40,332 nucleotides of DNA from Ferrithrix thermotolerans DSM 19514 (GTDB taxonomy: Bacteria; Actinomycetota; Acidimicrobiia; Acidimicrobiales; Acidimicrobiaceae), in assembly GCF_900128965.1 (NCBI RefSeq), contig NZ_FQUL01000018.1:5545-45876 (forward strand), read 5' to 3'. Below are positions 26,701 through 32,174 of this stretch, piece by piece. Position numbers and translations under genes: made by a program. Positions within the stretch are counted from its first letter, which is position 1. Each line of letters starts with the position of its first letter. The notes under the pieces are model-generated. The model was given only the letters and a program-made list of their open reading frames with translations. It did not search any database and was not told where the DNA came from.

Positions 26701-27148
26701 GAGATCTTTCAAGAGCATCTAGATCTATATTGTTTCCTACCCTAAGGGTTTTCCCCAATGAAGATGTATTGAAATCGAAGAGTCTCTGCATCAGCGCCCT
26801 TACCGTCATGACTACAACTGTTCCGGACTCTTTGCTACGCGCCTTTCTGAGCGACTCAAGCACCTTTATACGTTGGCCCACGAGGTCTCTTGGGGGGGAA
26901 ACTCTCTCAAAGGGTAAGCTTTCTAGTTGCGGAAAGTACTGAACGGTCTCTTGGCCCAGGTATACCTGTAGATCCTCGAACACCCTCAGAGCCGAGTTTG
27001 TATTAGCACAGACAAGAAACGTGATCGATCCGGGCGTCCGTTGAAGATGCAGAGCGCCAAAAAGTGGCCATCCACTTTCTTCAGCGACCACAGGGGATGA
27101 GCTGACGGGCGCCCCGTAGCTATTTACCAATCGCAAGAGGTCGATCAT
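23708..27148 (-). CDS. mfd: Transcription-repair coupling factor
   Basis: A 1,146-residue translocase that removes RNA polymerase stalled at DNA lesions and recruits UvrABC. In order: UvrB-like N-terminal part (VSSSPVVAEESGWPLFGALH), the RNA polymerase-interacting domain with VHDNHGIAIYRG, the RecG-type motor with Walker A GDVGFGKT (621-628) and DEEQ (722-725), TATPIPRTLEMSLTGIRDLS, the TRG-type QIRGRVGRSG region, and the C-terminal TRCF domain. Length is normal. The ATG overlaps the pth stop (ATGA), so it is translationally coupled. Confidence 0.97.
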   Translation of the reverse strand: MIDLLRLVNSYGAPVSSSPVVAEESGWPLFGALHLQRTPGSITFLVCANTNSALRVFEDLQVYLGQETVQYFPQLESLPFERVSPPRDLVGQRIKVLESLRKARSKESGTVVVMTVRALMQRLFDFNTSSLGKTLRVGNNIDLDALERSLYQLGYVREYVVETKGQFAVRGSIVDFFPPSFDLPVRVDLFGDEIEEIFEFDPEDQRRIGSLASVDLLPARECLIDDAVRVKAEVAAKEIPEGRSYFERIASGEYFDGVESWLYWLSSSEKTVASLLGDEDQVVLFEAGRLRGRANDLIEEELVLKKAISTSWGLDSGIDLPRFHVGLDDVLGSSDARLFLVEPALGQEKVVRSWGLSGRESEDLVRKIKDLLHQRYLVVVGVESPGSAEAIVSSFVEHEVDATLAESGWDPKAAQGHKVVVFSGAPLYQGAISSLSKVAVLSESDLSGRRRSHRHEATRRKQAVAKVDFEALEPGSYVVHDNHGIAIYRGMTKRTLAGAERDYLILEFKGSDKIYVPTEQISLITPYFGGERPTLSRLGGSDWQVTKAKARKAAQEVAQELVVLYQKRTVSEGHSFSADSIWQREVEERFPYELTRDQQRAISEVKADMESPKPMDRLVCGDVGFGKTEIAIRAAFKAIQDSKQVAMLVPTTLLAQQHYQTFLDRFEGKPVNVAMLSRFLTSKEARDVVKGLRDGSVDLVIGTHRLLAKDLQFKDLGLLIVDEEQRFGVNHKEQIKQLKSGVDVLTLTATPIPRTLEMSLTGIRDLSLLRTPPRRRQPILTHVGPYDEFAVSEAIRRELIREGQVFFVHNRVRDIESVAQRLRELVPEARVAVAHGQMDEGHLEQVVIDFWEGLYDVLVCTTIIESGIDMPTVNTLVVDRADTLGLGQLHQIRGRVGRSGVRAYAYLFYPDSERITDLAFDRLKTISENVELGSGYRIAMRDLEIRGAGNLLGESQSGHMAAVGYDLYVKMVKEAVADLNGEVQREHNPLPSVDIPVKAYIPEDYVERQDLRLDFYSRLSKASSLFDVDEMEAELKDRFGVLPVAVENLLRIVRLQVRLAERSVSTLSVLKRPGAVNYELRVSPVSIPRSRIVRLRRLYRSAVVREGQGELVVPVSNQIPLLEAVERFCSEIIFDESSTTAAIETI

Positions 27149-27729
27149 CTGGTATTGGAGTTGAACTCATTCATCGCTTTTTCGACTCCGTCTCTAACGA
27201 TTGATTGAACCGCCATAGCCGCTCGCTCTGTGGCCAGTTCAAGCTGAATCCTCTCGTTGGCATCCGGTCTCGACAAAACCCATCTAGATATGTCAACACC
27301 ATCTCTCGGACGACCTATTCCGACTCTTACTCTAATGAAGTCTTTGCTCCCAGCGTAGCTTGCGATCGACTTGAGTCCGTTATGACCTGCGAGGCCTCCA
27401 CCACGTTTTATCTTTACAACCCCCACCGGAAGATCGAGTTCGTCGTGAATCACCACAAGGGAGTTCACTACCGCTTCGGGATACCTCTTCATCAAACACA
27501 CAACAGCACGCCCGGACTCGTTCATGTAGGTCTGAGGGAAGGAAAGAACGGTTGGGGCTCCACCGATCTCAGCCTCACAAGCCAAAGTCATACAGCTCTT
27601 TACACGACGGAGGGAGACATGAGTCGAGTCTGCAAGCTTTGCTACTACAGCCGCTCCCGCATTGTGCCGGGTTTTCTCATAGCGTTCTCCAGGGTTACCT
27701 AGCCCAGCGACCAAATACAGCTGTGGCAA
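27145..27729 (-). CDS. pth: Peptidyl-tRNA hydrolase
   Basis: A 194-residue enzyme that frees tRNA from prematurely released peptidyl-tRNA. Family residues are all present: N12 and catalytic H22 (GLGNPGERYEKTRHNAG), N70 (PQTYMNESG), D96 (HDELDLP) and N117 (GGGLAGHNGLKS). The start is TTG at 27729, giving the standard distance to the first motif; no strong ribosome-binding site is visible. It lies 15 bp after the L25 gene and overlaps mfd. L25-pth-mfd is a common bacterial order. Confidence 0.96.
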   Translation of the reverse strand: MPQLYLVAGLGNPGERYEKTRHNAGAAVVAKLADSTHVSLRRVKSCMTLACEAEIGGAPTVLSFPQTYMNESGRAVVCLMKRYPEAVVNSLVVIHDELDLPVGVVKIKRGGGLAGHNGLKSIASYAGSKDFIRVRVGIGRPRDGVDISRWVLSRPDANERIQLELATERAAMAVQSIVRDGVEKAMNEFNSNTR

Positions 27730-27744
27730 CTAGACCAACTAGTG

Positions 27745-28272
27745 TTACTCTTCTAGAGCGAGTTTGGCGACCACGAAATCAGTTTCCGCAACCACCTTTA
27801 CGCCTTTAGGCAGTGGAACTAAAGACGCCATTACCTCTCCAGCATCGTTTGCCAGTTCCGCCCCCACCTCAATGGCCGCAGGAATAGAAGATGCGGGACC
27901 TTCGACGTTCAACGCCGCTACCTGAAGGACAAGTGTCGTAGGGGCAGTAAGAGTAACTGCAGAAGTAACTACGTCCTTAGCGTTCATGAACAAAAAGTCC
28001 ACGTGGGTCACTTCACGACGGATTGGATGCACCTGTACATCTTGAACACGCACAATCTGAGACTTTCCATCTATCGAAAGCGTTAGTATCGAACCCTTAG
28101 CAACTCTGTTAGAAAGGGCGCTTCGCAACTCTCTTAGATTGCAAGAGATTGCGATAGGAGACGACTGCGCGCCGTATACGACTCCCGGCACCATGCCCTC
28201 TCTACGAATCCGGCGAGAGGCTCGGCTCCCCGCCTCGCGACCACCTACGGCTTTGACCTCAACCTGGGACAC
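27745..28272 (-). CDS. rplY: 50S ribosomal protein L25/Ctc
   Basis: A 175-residue two-domain L25 of the Ctc type that binds 5S rRNA. The N-terminal L25 domain contains SRASRRIRREGMVPGVVYG and VRVQDVQVHPIRREVTHVDF. The C-terminal TL5-like beta domain follows from about residue 95 and is somewhat short. The start is GTG 28272 with TAGGAGAG upstream. It sits between prs and pth, the usual context. Confidence 0.93.
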   Translation of the reverse strand: MSQVEVKAVGGREAGSRASRRIRREGMVPGVVYGAQSSPIAISCNLRELRSALSNRVAKGSILTLSIDGKSQIVRVQDVQVHPIRREVTHVDFLFMNAKDVVTSAVTLTAPTTLVLQVAALNVEGPASSIPAAIEVGAELANDAGEVMASLVPLPKGVKVVAETDFVVAKLALEE

Positions 28273-28404: not shown

Positions 28405-29376
28405 CTACGAAAGGTTATCACCTTTGAAGATGTTAGAGACAGAACCGTCCTCGAACACAGCGGCGATAGCATCGGCCAACACCTTGGCGATAGAGAGCAC
28501 TTCTAGCTTGTCGAAGCGTCTTTCTTCCGAGAGTGGCAAGGTATCGGTAACGACCACCCTTGATATGTCCGAGGCCTTTAGACGGTCCACGGCTTGACCT
28601 GAGAGCAGACCATGAGTCGCCATCGCCCATACCTCTGAGGCACCTTTTGCAACTAGCAGCTCTGCAGCCGCACAGATCGTTCCGGCGGTGTCTATCATGT
28701 CGTCGATAAGTACACAACGCCTACCCGAGACCTCACCTACAACATCAAGAGCCTCAACTACATTTGCAGTGCCCTTTGGCCTTCTTTTATGCACAAAGGC
28801 GACGTCGGCGTTTAGGTACTGCGAGTACCTCGAAGCAACCTTCACCCTACCTGCATCAGGGGCGACGATTACAAAGTCTTCGTCAGCATGCCGCTTCAGG
28901 TACTCAATTAGCACTGGCATCGCTGTCAGGTGGTCGACGGGGCCATCGAAGAAACCTTGAATCTGACCTGAGTGGAGGTCCACGGACACTATGCGATCCG
29001 CTCCAGCTGCCGCAAAGAGATCCGAGACAAGCTTTGCCGTTATAGGCTCACGCCCGGCAGACTTTCTGTCTTGGCGAGAGTATCCATAGTACGGACAAAC
29101 AGCGGTTATTCTGTCTGCTGATGCCCGTTTCGCAGCATCGATCATGATGAGTTGTTCGAAGATCGAGTCATTCACGGGTCCTGCATGGGTTTGGAGGATG
29201 AAGACGTCCTTACCTCTTACAGAGTCTCCAAATCTGCAGTATATCTCGCCGTCTGCAAAGTCCTTTAGGACCATAGGGCCAAGGCGAACCTCAAGATGCT
29301 TGGCTACCTCAAGCGCTAGTTCCCTGTGAGCTCTACCCGCATAAAGCTCGAGTCGTCTTCTAAGTACTAGCTCCAT
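28405..29376 (-). CDS. prs: Ribose-phosphate pyrophosphokinase
   Basis: A 323-residue PRPP synthetase that makes phosphoribosyl pyrophosphate from ribose-5-phosphate and ATP. Motifs are YAGRAHRELALEVAKHL near the start, the catalytic/ATP region CPYYGYSRQDRKSAGREPI, VIVAPDAGRVKVA, and the PRPP loop VLIDDMIDTAGT. ATG 29376 is chosen because GGAG lies 7 nt upstream, within the end of glmU; the TTG codon just before is a poorer alternative. It follows glmU by 3 bp, and the glmU-prs pair is common since both feed activated-sugar and nucleotide pools. Confidence 0.96.
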   Translation of the reverse strand: MELVLRRRLELYAGRAHRELALEVAKHLEVRLGPMVLKDFADGEIYCRFGDSVRGKDVFILQTHAGPVNDSIFEQLIMIDAAKRASADRITAVCPYYGYSRQDRKSAGREPITAKLVSDLFAAAGADRIVSVDLHSGQIQGFFDGPVDHLTAMPVLIEYLKRHADEDFVIVAPDAGRVKVASRYSQYLNADVAFVHKRRPKGTANVVEALDVVGEVSGRRCVLIDDMIDTAGTICAAAELLVAKGASEVWAMATHGLLSGQAVDRLKASDISRVVVTDTLPLSEERRFDKLEVLSIAKVLADAIAAVFEDGSVSNIFKGDNLS

Positions 29377-29379
29377 CAA

Positions 29380-30489
29380 CTACTCCATGTTCTCTTTGGA
29401 ACCGATGCTCTGATACGCCGGTACCTTGGTACCAGGTGCGAGGTAAACAAAGGGTCCTACCTTAGCTCCGTCGCCCACATAGGCTTTATTCGCTTCACAG
29501 TATGATAGGCGCACTCTTTCTCCAACAGTGCAGTCGACGAGGTGACATCCAGGTCCTACCACGCTTTGCGAACCTATCGTCGTTGCTCCTTCAATCACGG
29601 CACCAGGCCATATAGTCACGTCCCTGGCCAACTGGGCTCTGCAGTCGATATAGGTGGTGTTTGGATCAACAAGGGTCACTCCCTCTCTCATCCAGGCGTA
29701 ATTAATTCTTCGACGCATGACCTTCTCGGCGTCGCTGAGCTGAGCCCTGTCATTGACCCCCATAACCAGCGAGGCGTCTTCTAACTGAGAGGATCCAATC
29801 GAGTAGCCGGCAGCGGAGAGAACCGCCACTGCGTCTGTCAGATACAGCTCTTGCTGGGAGTTCAAGGGCGCAAGGCGTCTAAGTGCAGCTGGCAGTGGTG
29901 CGGTATCAAACATATATAAGGAGGTGTTTATCTCGTCGATCTGACGTTGCTCCGCAGTGGCGTCGCGTTCTTCGACTATCGCTACCACAGAACCATCTTT
30001 TGACCTTATCACGCGCCCATATCCAAAAGGATTTTCCACTCTGGCCGTTAGCAAAGTGGCCGCACACTTACTACTAAAGTGGGTTTCAACCAACTCATTT
30101 AGAACACTCGACTCGATGAGGGGTACGTCTGCAGGCATCACCAATACAGCTCCCCGACGGCCGCCAAGCTCAACGATAGGGTCGCTGATCCTGGTCATCG
30201 CTACACTTAGGGCGTCTCCTGTTCCCTTTAGACTCTCTTGCCGAACAAACACCAGTTCCAGATCGCCTTGATACAAAGAGAGAAGTTCGGAGCGAATCTC
30301 CTCTTCTTTGTGACCCACAACTATAACCACTCGGTCGATCATGCTCAGTTCGTCAAGCGCGGTCAATATGTGTTCAAGCATCGTCTTGCCACAGAGCTTC
30401 AACAGAGGCTTCGGACGCTCAGACTTCATACGAGTTCCCTCTCCGGCAGCCATTATAACCACGGATAAAGGAGCGTGATAACCGTTCAT
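29380..30489 (-). CDS. glmU: GlmU N-acetylglucosamine-1-phosphate uridyltransferase, C-terminally short
   Basis: A 369-residue protein. The uridyltransferase domain is complete: AAGEGTRM at 14-21, GTGDAL at 89-94, MPADVPL with metal ligand D121, NPFGYGRV, and VEERDAT. A left-handed beta-helix begins around 265 (GVTLVDPNTTYID) but ends shortly after KVGPFVYLAPGTKV. Normal GlmU is about 450 residues, and the missing part holds the acetyl-CoA-dependent active site. The UTP step should work, while acetylation of glucosamine-1-phosphate probably does not. prs follows at once, so no displaced C-terminal piece is hidden downstream. The position in the glmU-prs pair argues it is the real locus. Confidence 0.88.
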   Translation of the reverse strand: MNGYHAPLSVVIMAAGEGTRMKSERPKPLLKLCGKTMLEHILTALDELSMIDRVVIVVGHKEEEIRSELLSLYQGDLELVFVRQESLKGTGDALSVAMTRISDPIVELGGRRGAVLVMPADVPLIESSVLNELVETHFSSKCAATLLTARVENPFGYGRVIRSKDGSVVAIVEERDATAEQRQIDEINTSLYMFDTAPLPAALRRLAPLNSQQELYLTDAVAVLSAAGYSIGSSQLEDASLVMGVNDRAQLSDAEKVMRRRINYAWMREGVTLVDPNTTYIDCRAQLARDVTIWPGAVIEGATTIGSQSVVGPGCHLVDCTVGERVRLSYCEANKAYVGDGAKVGPFVYLAPGTKVPAYQSIGSKENME

Positions 30490-30566: not shown

Positions 30567-32174
30567 CTACCTTACCCGAAATACATAGGTCAGCACGGAG
30601 TCAGGCGGTATTGAGGCAACAGCGATACTCCCTTTCACATCAGGGAGATCGGCGTTCTTCCAACTAGCACCAGGATCGGTTAGTAGCGCTGCAGTCGGTA
30701 TCAATTCTCCCCTACCAACCTTAGTGTGAGGAAAATCGATCTCCAGAGTCGTCGGCCCTCCCGCTACAGTGCTGTTGCCAACGACGACAGTCCACTCAGA
30801 CCTCGTCCGAGCGGCCAACGCAAACACAGCTGGAGAGTCCGACTGGACGGCGTGTAAAGTAGCGCCCGGAAGAATAAAGCGGGAGAAGTTCCCAAAGACG
30901 TAGTACCTCTTTGTGAGATAGAAGTTTTGGTCTCCATTCTTTGCACCGTTTAGGTCGTAATACGCAAGGCCGTCGTTACGTCCAAGGTAGTTAACCTGAT
31001 TCCAACATCCTGGCGCAGCTAGGGGACTACAGCCCAAGTTGGGCGATACTGCAGTCCACCAGTCGAAAGCCCTGTCTCTGCCGAAGGTTATGTCCGTGTA
31101 GATCGTGTGAGCTAGCCACATTCCAGATACCATCGTGGGGTCGTATTGATATCCAAAGTGCGCCCCATTGTAGCAACAGATCTCAGTCATCCACGATGGG
31201 ATCCCAAGGGGCGAGATCTTGGAGGCCATCTCCGACAGTACGTTGCGATGCGGAAAGTCATAGAGGTGGTGAGCTACAACGGCAAGGTACTTGGCGACTT
31301 GGGGCTGCTTCGCCCACTCGTATAGATGTGGCAGTAAAAGGGTGGACACCTTAGACGACTCATCCGCAATCTCTTTGCACCAAGGGGCATACTTTGCCAG
31401 TTCCTGGCCAACTGCAACGACCAGGCGAGCTCTCAAGCTAACAGGAACCGCCATCCCCTCTTGCTTACAGGAGCCGAAGTTGTTGTCGGGCTCGTTCATA
31501 GGTGAAACGTAGTTGACCTGTACGTGGAAGTGCTCTTTTATACCTTGGATGACCTGTGCAAGATAGGTTGCGTATTGAACGATTTCGTTGGGGTTTAAGG
31601 ATCCTCCACACGCCAGATGATTCGTAGTGAAAGCTGGAGGTGCCGAATTCACAAAACCAACGAGATCTCTTACATGGTATCTATCGGCCATTTCCAGGAA
31701 CTCAATACCTGCTGGATCTGCTCCCCAGTTATAGTTTCCAGGCCCCACATAAAAGGTCGGGGGTGCCTTCCATGGCACTATTACGCCCGCCCCGCCACCA
31801 CCTATGTTGTATCGATACTGCGCAAGATGAAGACCAGAAGCAGAAAAAAGAATTTCACCAAGTCGCTCCTTTGCTTTCCGGGAAAACTGTGACACTGGTC
31901 CTGGCCACCAGGCTCCAGACGCTCCGAACCCTTGCCACTTCAACTCAGCAGTTGGGGAGACCGATAAAGTAGCCTGTTGGATTTGAGCGGGAGACTTATC
32001 ACCATCTGTCGCAGAAGGCCCCTGTGCACCTGAGTCGATAATGAAGATCGCCAGCACCAGTGCTGCAAAGACCAGAACTGCAGAACGAAGAAGGTACGAG
32101 ACCCCGACTCGCTCACCTTTTACGCTCTCACTTCCACCCAATACAATCTCCCACTTTCGCAATTTTCTGACCAT
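30567..32174 (-). CDS. GH30-like glycoside hydrolase, membrane-anchored or secreted
   Basis: A 535-residue protein with a charged N-terminus and a hydrophobic helix at about 28-47 (signal anchor or signal peptide). A TIM-barrel glycosidase follows, with the opening GFGASGAWWPG (82-92), the acid/base Glu in SPMNEPD (E228) and the nucleophile Glu in WMTEICCY (E331). A C-terminal beta-sandwich is suggested after about 430. The pattern is closest to GH30 enzymes of the endo-beta-1,6-galactanase type. The target would be an extracellular polysaccharide, but the exact glycan is not deducible. It is a single gene with its own start at ATG 32174, on the opposite strand from the HAD gene. Confidence 0.8.
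   Translation of the reverse strand: MVRKLRKWEIVLGGSESVKGERVGVSYLLRSAVLVFAALVLAIFIIDSGAQGPSATDGDKSPAQIQQATLSVSPTAELKWQGFGASGAWWPGPVSQFSRKAKERLGEILFSASGLHLAQYRYNIGGGGAGVIVPWKAPPTFYVGPGNYNWGADPAGIEFLEMADRYHVRDLVGFVNSAPPAFTTNHLACGGSLNPNEIVQYATYLAQVIQGIKEHFHVQVNYVSPMNEPDNNFGSCKQEGMAVPVSLRARLVVAVGQELAKYAPWCKEIADESSKVSTLLLPHLYEWAKQPQVAKYLAVVAHHLYDFPHRNVLSEMASKISPLGIPSWMTEICCYNGAHFGYQYDPTMVSGMWLAHTIYTDITFGRDRAFDWWTAVSPNLGCSPLAAPGCWNQVNYLGRNDGLAYYDLNGAKNGDQNFYLTKRYYVFGNFSRFILPGATLHAVQSDSPAVFALAARTRSEWTVVVGNSTVAGGPTTLEIDFPHTKVGRGELIPTAALLTDPGASWKNADLPDVKGSIAVASIPPDSVLTYVFRVR

Follow-up and report, generated by a model that had tools for sequence, protein, structure and literature searches.

The short glmU and its neighbourhood

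GlmU is commonly regarded as the enzyme that supplies bacteria with UDP-GlcNAc, and its acetyltransferase activity is generally considered essential and a target for antibacterial drugs. The window, i.e. the whole stretch of 40,332 nt of Ferrithrix thermotolerans DSM 19514 that was analysed, carries a short glmU at 29380-30489 on the minus strand. According to the open reading frame, the match to the GlmU profile TIGR01173 and the alignments, the gene encodes the uridyltransferase half only (369 aa). The base directly after its stop is the start of prs for ribose-phosphate pyrophosphokinase (28405-29379, minus strand), followed on the same strand by a rplY/ctc-like bL25 gene (27745-28272) and a pth-like gene for peptidyl-tRNA hydrolase (27145-27729). 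These three context genes were named by eye. On the other side, upstream of glmU, the 535-residue protein at 30567-32174 (minus strand) resembles a secreted glycoside hydrolase by eye.

The protein consists of two parts. The nucleotidyltransferase domain is intact and spans approximately residues 1-255 (29725-30489, minus strand; Pfam NTP_transf_3/NTP_transferase, boundary set by eye). It aligns over its full length with Mycobacterium tuberculosis (Mtb) GlmU, showing small gaps and having AAGEGTRMKSERPK, MPADVPL and MGVNDRAQL in place, which we take to be the catalytic signatures of the uridyltransferase. Judged by these motifs, this half appears to be that of a regular bifunctional GlmU. The remainder, approximately residues 256-369 (29383-29724, minus strand), is a remnant of the left-handed beta-helix with a Pfam Hexapep match at residues 287-317, which in the alignment with full-length GlmUs stops short of the acetyltransferase core. 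It terminates at GPFVYLAPGTKVP, and the C-terminal end of the protein reads GPFVYLAPGTKVPAYQSIGSKENME. TIGR01173 is matched at profile positions 2-342 of 452 with 330.4 bits, i.e. below the curated cut-off of 366.85 bits. An earlier note on this DNA had described a GlmU of 369 residues stopping shortly inside the beta-helix, with intact uridyltransferase motifs and prs immediately behind it, and all of this agrees with our results. Its estimate of about 80 missing residues was too low, as ~110 profile positions are lacking at the C-terminus.

The window protein was aligned with 26 of 29 relatives tried from the order Acidimicrobiales (three could not be extracted) and with 5 of 6 full-length actinobacterial GlmUs. 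The segment K..HLSYxGDA..NIGAGT..NYDG is present with small variations in all five full-length proteins, whereas it is absent from the window protein and from 26/26 relatives. Moreover, the Arg of the RPG/RPE/RPA motif of full-length GlmUs is replaced in the window protein and in the same 26 relatives. Because the segment is missing in this alignment, the acetyltransferase half is absent and not just divergent, and the window protein has no complete beta-helix acetyltransferase half as in bifunctional GlmU. Compared with the bifunctional enzymes of TIGR01173, the N-terminal uridyltransferase half and the gene order glmU-prs are shared, whereas the acetyltransferase half and a score above the curated cut-off are not.

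Extent of the truncation

A TIGR01173 search of 397 genomes of the order gave GlmU matches at E <= 1e-40 in 279 genomes and none in 118. Among the matches listed, which are the best-scoring part of the 279, all end at profile positions 328-362 of 452 (three of them read through a stop). Seven of the 397 genomes pass the curated cut-off, and GlmU is short there too. The 26 aligned relatives have 361-387 aa and a common end point. Since they all end at the same place, the truncation is no sequencing error.

The phylum was sampled with 296 genomes of at least 90% completeness, 27 from the order and 269 others. The GlmU cut-off is passed by 253 of the 296, and none of the 27 order genomes belongs to the seven passing ones mentioned above. 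A pass is no proof of full length, because four short GlmUs of family f70 (see below) pass as well. In the same class but outside the order, seven of eight genomes reach scores typical of a full-length GlmU (E 5.5e-150 to 5.1e-161), and the match in the eighth, G572, is cut by the contig end. From these comparisons, the acetylating half of GlmU seems to be lost throughout this order of wall-building bacteria.

Short forms are found elsewhere in the phylum as well. In f70, which lies outside the order, eight genomes (G415, G441, G510, G528, G537, G555, G564 and G574; loci L166-L171, L175 and L176) have a short GlmU with matches ending at 324-356 of 452, the one in G574 at a contig end. The short glmU adjoins prs in the loci inspected (six of the eight), and other f70 members score as full-length. 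Two f91 genomes (G437 and G606; loci L172 and L174) retain the last helix coils (GAGSVIT) with the middle of the acetyltransferase domain, the helix core, deleted, a pattern which on sequence grounds is a third kind of GlmU loss. In a further f91 genome, G561, the GlmU match covers only positions 2-240, and the frame of 271 residues that carries it does not lie at a contig end. Altogether 26 genomes outside the order were re-inspected for a weak GlmU score or for presence of the acetyltransferase described below. GlmU is full-length in G495, G631, G615 and G639, and pieces of the C-terminal half are visible in G600, G513, G642 and G621. The matches in G572, G517, G482 and G432 run off the contig end and carry no information on length, and in G578, G593 and G658 GlmU was not matched at any E-value below 1e-18.

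Search for a second GlmU or a detached acetyltransferase half

In the F. thermotolerans genome (2.49 Mb, 98.8% complete) nine proteins match TIGR01173 at E <= 0.001, only two of them extending past position 342. By eye these two are CysE, encoded beside cysK, and a protein resembling DapD, not a GlmU C-terminal half. A detached beta-helix half was found neither with TIGR01173 (E <= 0.001) nor with PF00132 (E <= 0.1). The hexapeptide proteins of the genome, named by eye instead of by a family search on each, look like CysE, DapD, gamma-carbonic anhydrase and sugar nucleotidyltransferases. The PF00132 search additionally gave an 862-residue nucleotidyltransferase fusion and a low-complexity frame of 45 residues.

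The earlier note had concluded that another acetyltransferase or another route is needed, seeing no frameshift, proposing to look for a separate beta-helix acetyltransferase, and naming a second full-length glmU or a sequencing error in the reading frame as what would speak against it. No second glmU, no detached C-terminal half and no frameshift were found, which supports this conclusion. The comparison of GlmU lengths across related genomes, also proposed there, yielded the order-wide extent of the short form, which, like the candidate acetyltransferase described below, goes beyond what the note had claimed.

On contig C49, glmM (472.9 bits, cut-off 447.55) lies directly beside glmS, hence the de novo supply of GlcN-phosphate looks intact. 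Of 59 order genomes, 54 contain a GlmM match at E <= 1e-100. Inspection by eye of the 19.6 kb stretch around both genes revealed no acetyltransferase gene between them; the sole GNAT in this stretch, ~7 kb downstream of glmS, is RimI by eye, in agreement with the PF00583 search described next.

Locus and distribution of a candidate GNAT

Ten GNAT proteins of the genome exceed the cut-off of Pfam PF00583 (Acetyltransf_1). One of them, encoded outside the window at G000:C93:10860-11351 on the minus strand, is the candidate followed here. Counted from the first start codon it has 164 residues, or ~147 if the start is placed as in its relatives. Against four small genomes, all of a single genus within the order, it is the reciprocal best hit in 4/4 with 49-56% identity and thereby the best conserved of the ten GNATs, although this is weak as independent evidence because the four are close relatives. 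The MshD-like L056 and the RimJ-like L061 are also reciprocal best hits in 4/4, at lower identity, and RimI and L054 in 3/4 (names by eye).

With the candidate as query, one match per genome was obtained in 94 of 99 order genomes (E <= 1e-12), including 78 of the 79 better assemblies. Among the five genomes without a match, G055 and G062 (86% and 77% complete) have a short GlmU, and G030, G068 and G083 have no convincing GlmU either. In the phylum sample (E <= 1e-10) the GNAT is present in 27/27 order genomes, in all of which GlmU is short or undetected, versus 6/269 others. It is absent from all eight same-class genomes outside the order and gives no match in the eight f70 genomes with short GlmU. 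Outside the order it occurs together with a full-length GlmU in G495, G615, G631 and G639, with a GlmU split over two frames in G621, and in G578, where GlmU was not found. Gain of the GNAT and loss of the GlmU half may go back to a single event in the ancestor of the order, so that the 27/27 co-occurrences are not independent counts. Moreover, the profiling across order and phylum covered this one candidate, and other order-specific genes would give the same pattern.

In 23 of the 99 order genomes GlmU was not matched at an E-value below 1e-40, and 20 of these 23 have the GNAT. In G027, one of the genomes without a GlmU match, a GlmU-like frame of 336 codons (L321:2080-3087) lies upstream of prs and is devoid of the nucleotide-binding motif AAGxGTRM. 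Some families of the order may thus be losing still more of GlmU and yet keep the GNAT. A UAP1-type pyrophosphorylase (PF01704) was rejected as a stand-in for missing GlmU, being found in 1/36 genomes, G006, which has a short GlmU. As a separate observation, order genomes such as G033, G034, G186, G035 and G054 have the GNAT, and neither a convincing GlmU nor a PF01704 pyrophosphorylase was found in them.

The gene neighbourhood of the GNAT was viewed in 80 loci with names given by eye. NUDIX-like genes are seen in 46, GlnD-like genes in 35 and citrate synthase in some, and no link to amino sugars was seen in these neighbours.

Conserved residues and predicted fold of the candidate

The top PDB sequence match of the candidate is 3fb3/3i3g (E 3.8e-11). 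3I3G is listed as TbGNA1 of Trypanosoma brucei with the substrate GlcN-6-P in a table of a GNAT review (PMC4964394) and is named TbGNA1 in PMC3413214 too. In a profile search with the GNAT, TbGNA1 ranked second behind 1z4e, an uncharacterised protein from Bacillus. The stretch IEDVVVD is identical in the candidate and TbGNA1; where the GNAT family and TbGNA1 carry Glu-Asp, 1z4e has Glu-Gly and 2dxq Glu-Asn. An alignment of 57 homologues, chosen from 79 extracted out of the 80 loci, shows 27 invariant columns including Q28-L29, I82-E83-D84-V85, L118-T119-S120-R121, R124, Y131 and R145. A second alignment comprised 25 sequences.

In CeGNA1, Glu104 and Asp105 bind the 3-OH and 4-OH of the sugar, Tyr149 stabilises the CoA thiolate, Lys136 binds the phosphate and Cys141 is a conserved active-site residue (PMC3413214). 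These residues were mapped onto the GNAT by counting along the TbGNA1 alignment. The pair Glu104/Asp105 thereby corresponds to E83 and D84, which are invariant in both alignments (25 and 57 sequences), and so is Y131, which aligns with the Tyr of TbGNA1. The position of Lys136 is occupied by Ser in the genome's GNAT and mostly by Thr, sometimes by Ser or Asn, in its relatives. The position of Cys141 is Ser as well, as it is in TbGNA1. Since the phosphate-binding lysine is absent, we do not file the candidate as a GNA1. NCBIfam offers no name for it; the best match, RimI, scores 33-43 bits where its cut-off is 86.4 (three members searched).

A structure model of the L193 orthologue, 66% identical to the candidate, has a mean pLDDT of 94.8. 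The GNAT fold is consistently indicated by this model, by its fold matches and by Pfam Acetyltransf_1. Using Foldseek and VIA-align, the GNA1s of C. parvum, T. brucei, Arabidopsis and yeast rank near the top (Z 17.0-17.9), tied in score with aminoglycoside, polyamine and N-terminal acetyltransferases, and the best two matches are the uncharacterised 1z4e and 2dxq. A fold search alone does not separate GNA1 from other GNATs. Eukaryotic GNA1 (EC 2.3.1.4, including the apicomplexan enzymes) is the best characterised sequence match of the candidate and among its best fold matches. Both share the GNAT fold, the Glu-Asp pair and the conserved Tyr, whereas the candidate, as likened from sequence and model, differs by lacking the conserved Lys and Cys and by a longer, Arg-containing LTSRPSR loop. 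By analogy, it most likely works like a GNA1. It appears to be the best candidate to replace the lost acetyltransferase of GlmU, to which it is unrelated.

A possible route to UDP-GlcNAc and its alternatives

We consider it somewhat favoured by our data that the short GlmU of the order is a pure UDP-GlcNAc pyrophosphorylase and that N-acetylation has moved to the separate small GNAT. GlmS would provide GlcN-6-P, which the GNAT would convert to GlcNAc-6-P in the manner of GNA1 in eukaryotes and mimivirus. GlmM would then act after acetylation as a GlcNAc-phosphate mutase, and the short GlmU would form UDP-GlcNAc from GlcNAc-1-P and UTP. GlcN-6-P is the most likely substrate because of the precedent of GNA1 and mimivirus. 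In an almost equally likely variant, GlmM would still yield GlcN-1-P and the GNAT would acetylate GlcN-1-P. The most far-reaching version remains tentative: the whole order might make the UDP-GlcNAc of its cell wall by a route like that of eukaryotes and giant viruses, with a GNAT of independent origin acetylating GlcN-6-P before the mutase, GlmM acting on GlcNAc-6-P and GlmU serving as pyrophosphorylase only. The GlmU acetyltransferase would thus have been replaced by a non-homologous enzyme, with the rest of GlmU decaying in some branches.

Several observations count against the GNAT route, namely the f70 genomes with short GlmU and no GNAT, the four genomes having both the GNAT and a full GlmU, the short GlmUs of G055 and G062 without GNAT, and the GNAT without convincing GlmU in 20/99 order genomes. 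The Ser in place of the phosphate-binding lysine, the tied fold scores of unrelated GNATs and the gene neighbours likewise speak against it. Another acetyltransferase might take over the step and the conserved GNAT have a different substrate, a rather unlikely but serious alternative: f70 manages its short GlmUs without the candidate, PF00583 misses some acetyltransferases, the profiling followed a single GNAT, and two other unassigned GNATs, L061 and L054, are reciprocal best hits in 4/4 and 3/4 of the small relatives. The latter two are, however, less conserved than the candidate (35.7-38.0% for L061, 39.5-40.7% for L054 where it is a reciprocal best hit), and the Glu-Asp pair occurs in 0/8 of the other GNATs read (there are nine others; L056 was left out).

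The short GlmU might instead uridylylate GlcN-1-P to UDP-GlcN, which would be acetylated as a nucleotide sugar, possibly by the same GNAT. A changed specificity of the uridyltransferase is compatible with the data, and the missing phosphate-binding lysine of GNA1 in the GNAT speaks for it; however, the motifs of the N-terminal domain look ordinary and we know of no precedent for formation and subsequent acetylation of UDP-GlcN, so that we regard this as improbable. Still less should be expected of uptake of GlcNAc or GlcNAc-1-P in place of de novo acetylation. Uptake from the host has been proposed for Rickettsia, whose GlmU is devoid of the same half (PMC5615194), whereas in our case glmS and glmM look intact, GlmM is widespread in the order and the order genomes of up to 6.9 Mb are unlike those of host-dependent parasites. 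An assembly or sequencing error that conceals the C-terminal half is refuted by the stop position shared by 26 relatives and by the listed order matches, all of them short; nothing was found in its favour and its probability is close to nil.

Relation to known systems

Loss of this half of GlmU is known from Rickettsia, where it was read as host uptake (PMC5615194), and from Chlorobaculum limnaeum, for which no replacement is given in the pertinent part of PMC7725333. The identical half is missing in the order; different from what is described in those sources, the loss extends over a whole order whose genomes do not resemble those of parasites, and we propose a replacement. Mimivirus pairs the GNAT L316 with R689, a monofunctional GlmU-N-like pyrophosphorylase, and L316 is described to acetylate both GlcN-6-P and GlcN-1-P with a five-fold preference for GlcN-6-P (PMC9614988). 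A separate GNAT next to a GlmU-N-like pyrophosphorylase would be common to both systems, but there the host of the pair is a virus, whereas here it would be cellular bacteria in which the product feeds peptidoglycan. GNA1 activity is reported to have evolved independently in Apicomplexa (PMC5838249). In titles and abstract openings of open-licence PMC papers, we found no report of a GlmU truncation in Acidimicrobiia or of this GNAT, and no open-licence PMC paper containing both 'Acidimicrobiia' and 'GlmU'. Hence, the loss as such is known before, and its order-wide occurrence together with the GNAT is, as far as seen, not in print.

If the GNAT route holds true, an order-wide loss with a single-copy candidate replacement would fill a hole in pathway annotation and represent a bacterial counterpart to the mimivirus pair. 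Inhibitors of the GlmU acetyltransferase would then be predicted to have no effect on the order. Moreover, it becomes testable whether bacteria that make a wall can exchange acetylation ahead of the mutase for acetylation behind it.

In a library of viral structures, a Yasminevirus UDP-N-acetylglucosamine diphosphorylase of 447 residues (BFVD A0A5K0UB38) was found at rank 7 with the GNAT model (TMq 0.80); this protein may combine both activities, acetyltransferase and pyrophosphorylase, in a naturally fused chain. The labels of the 80 GNAT relatives, from which the order was taken to be Acidimicrobiales, comprise 44 Acidimicrobiia taxa, 29 given as actinobacteria or similar only and 7 others. 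A close homologue (49% identity) is located at L263:2668-3099 on a contig labelled Bacteroidetes. As GlmS or GlmU is reported missing in the FCB group (PMC7725333), the GNAT may matter there, too.
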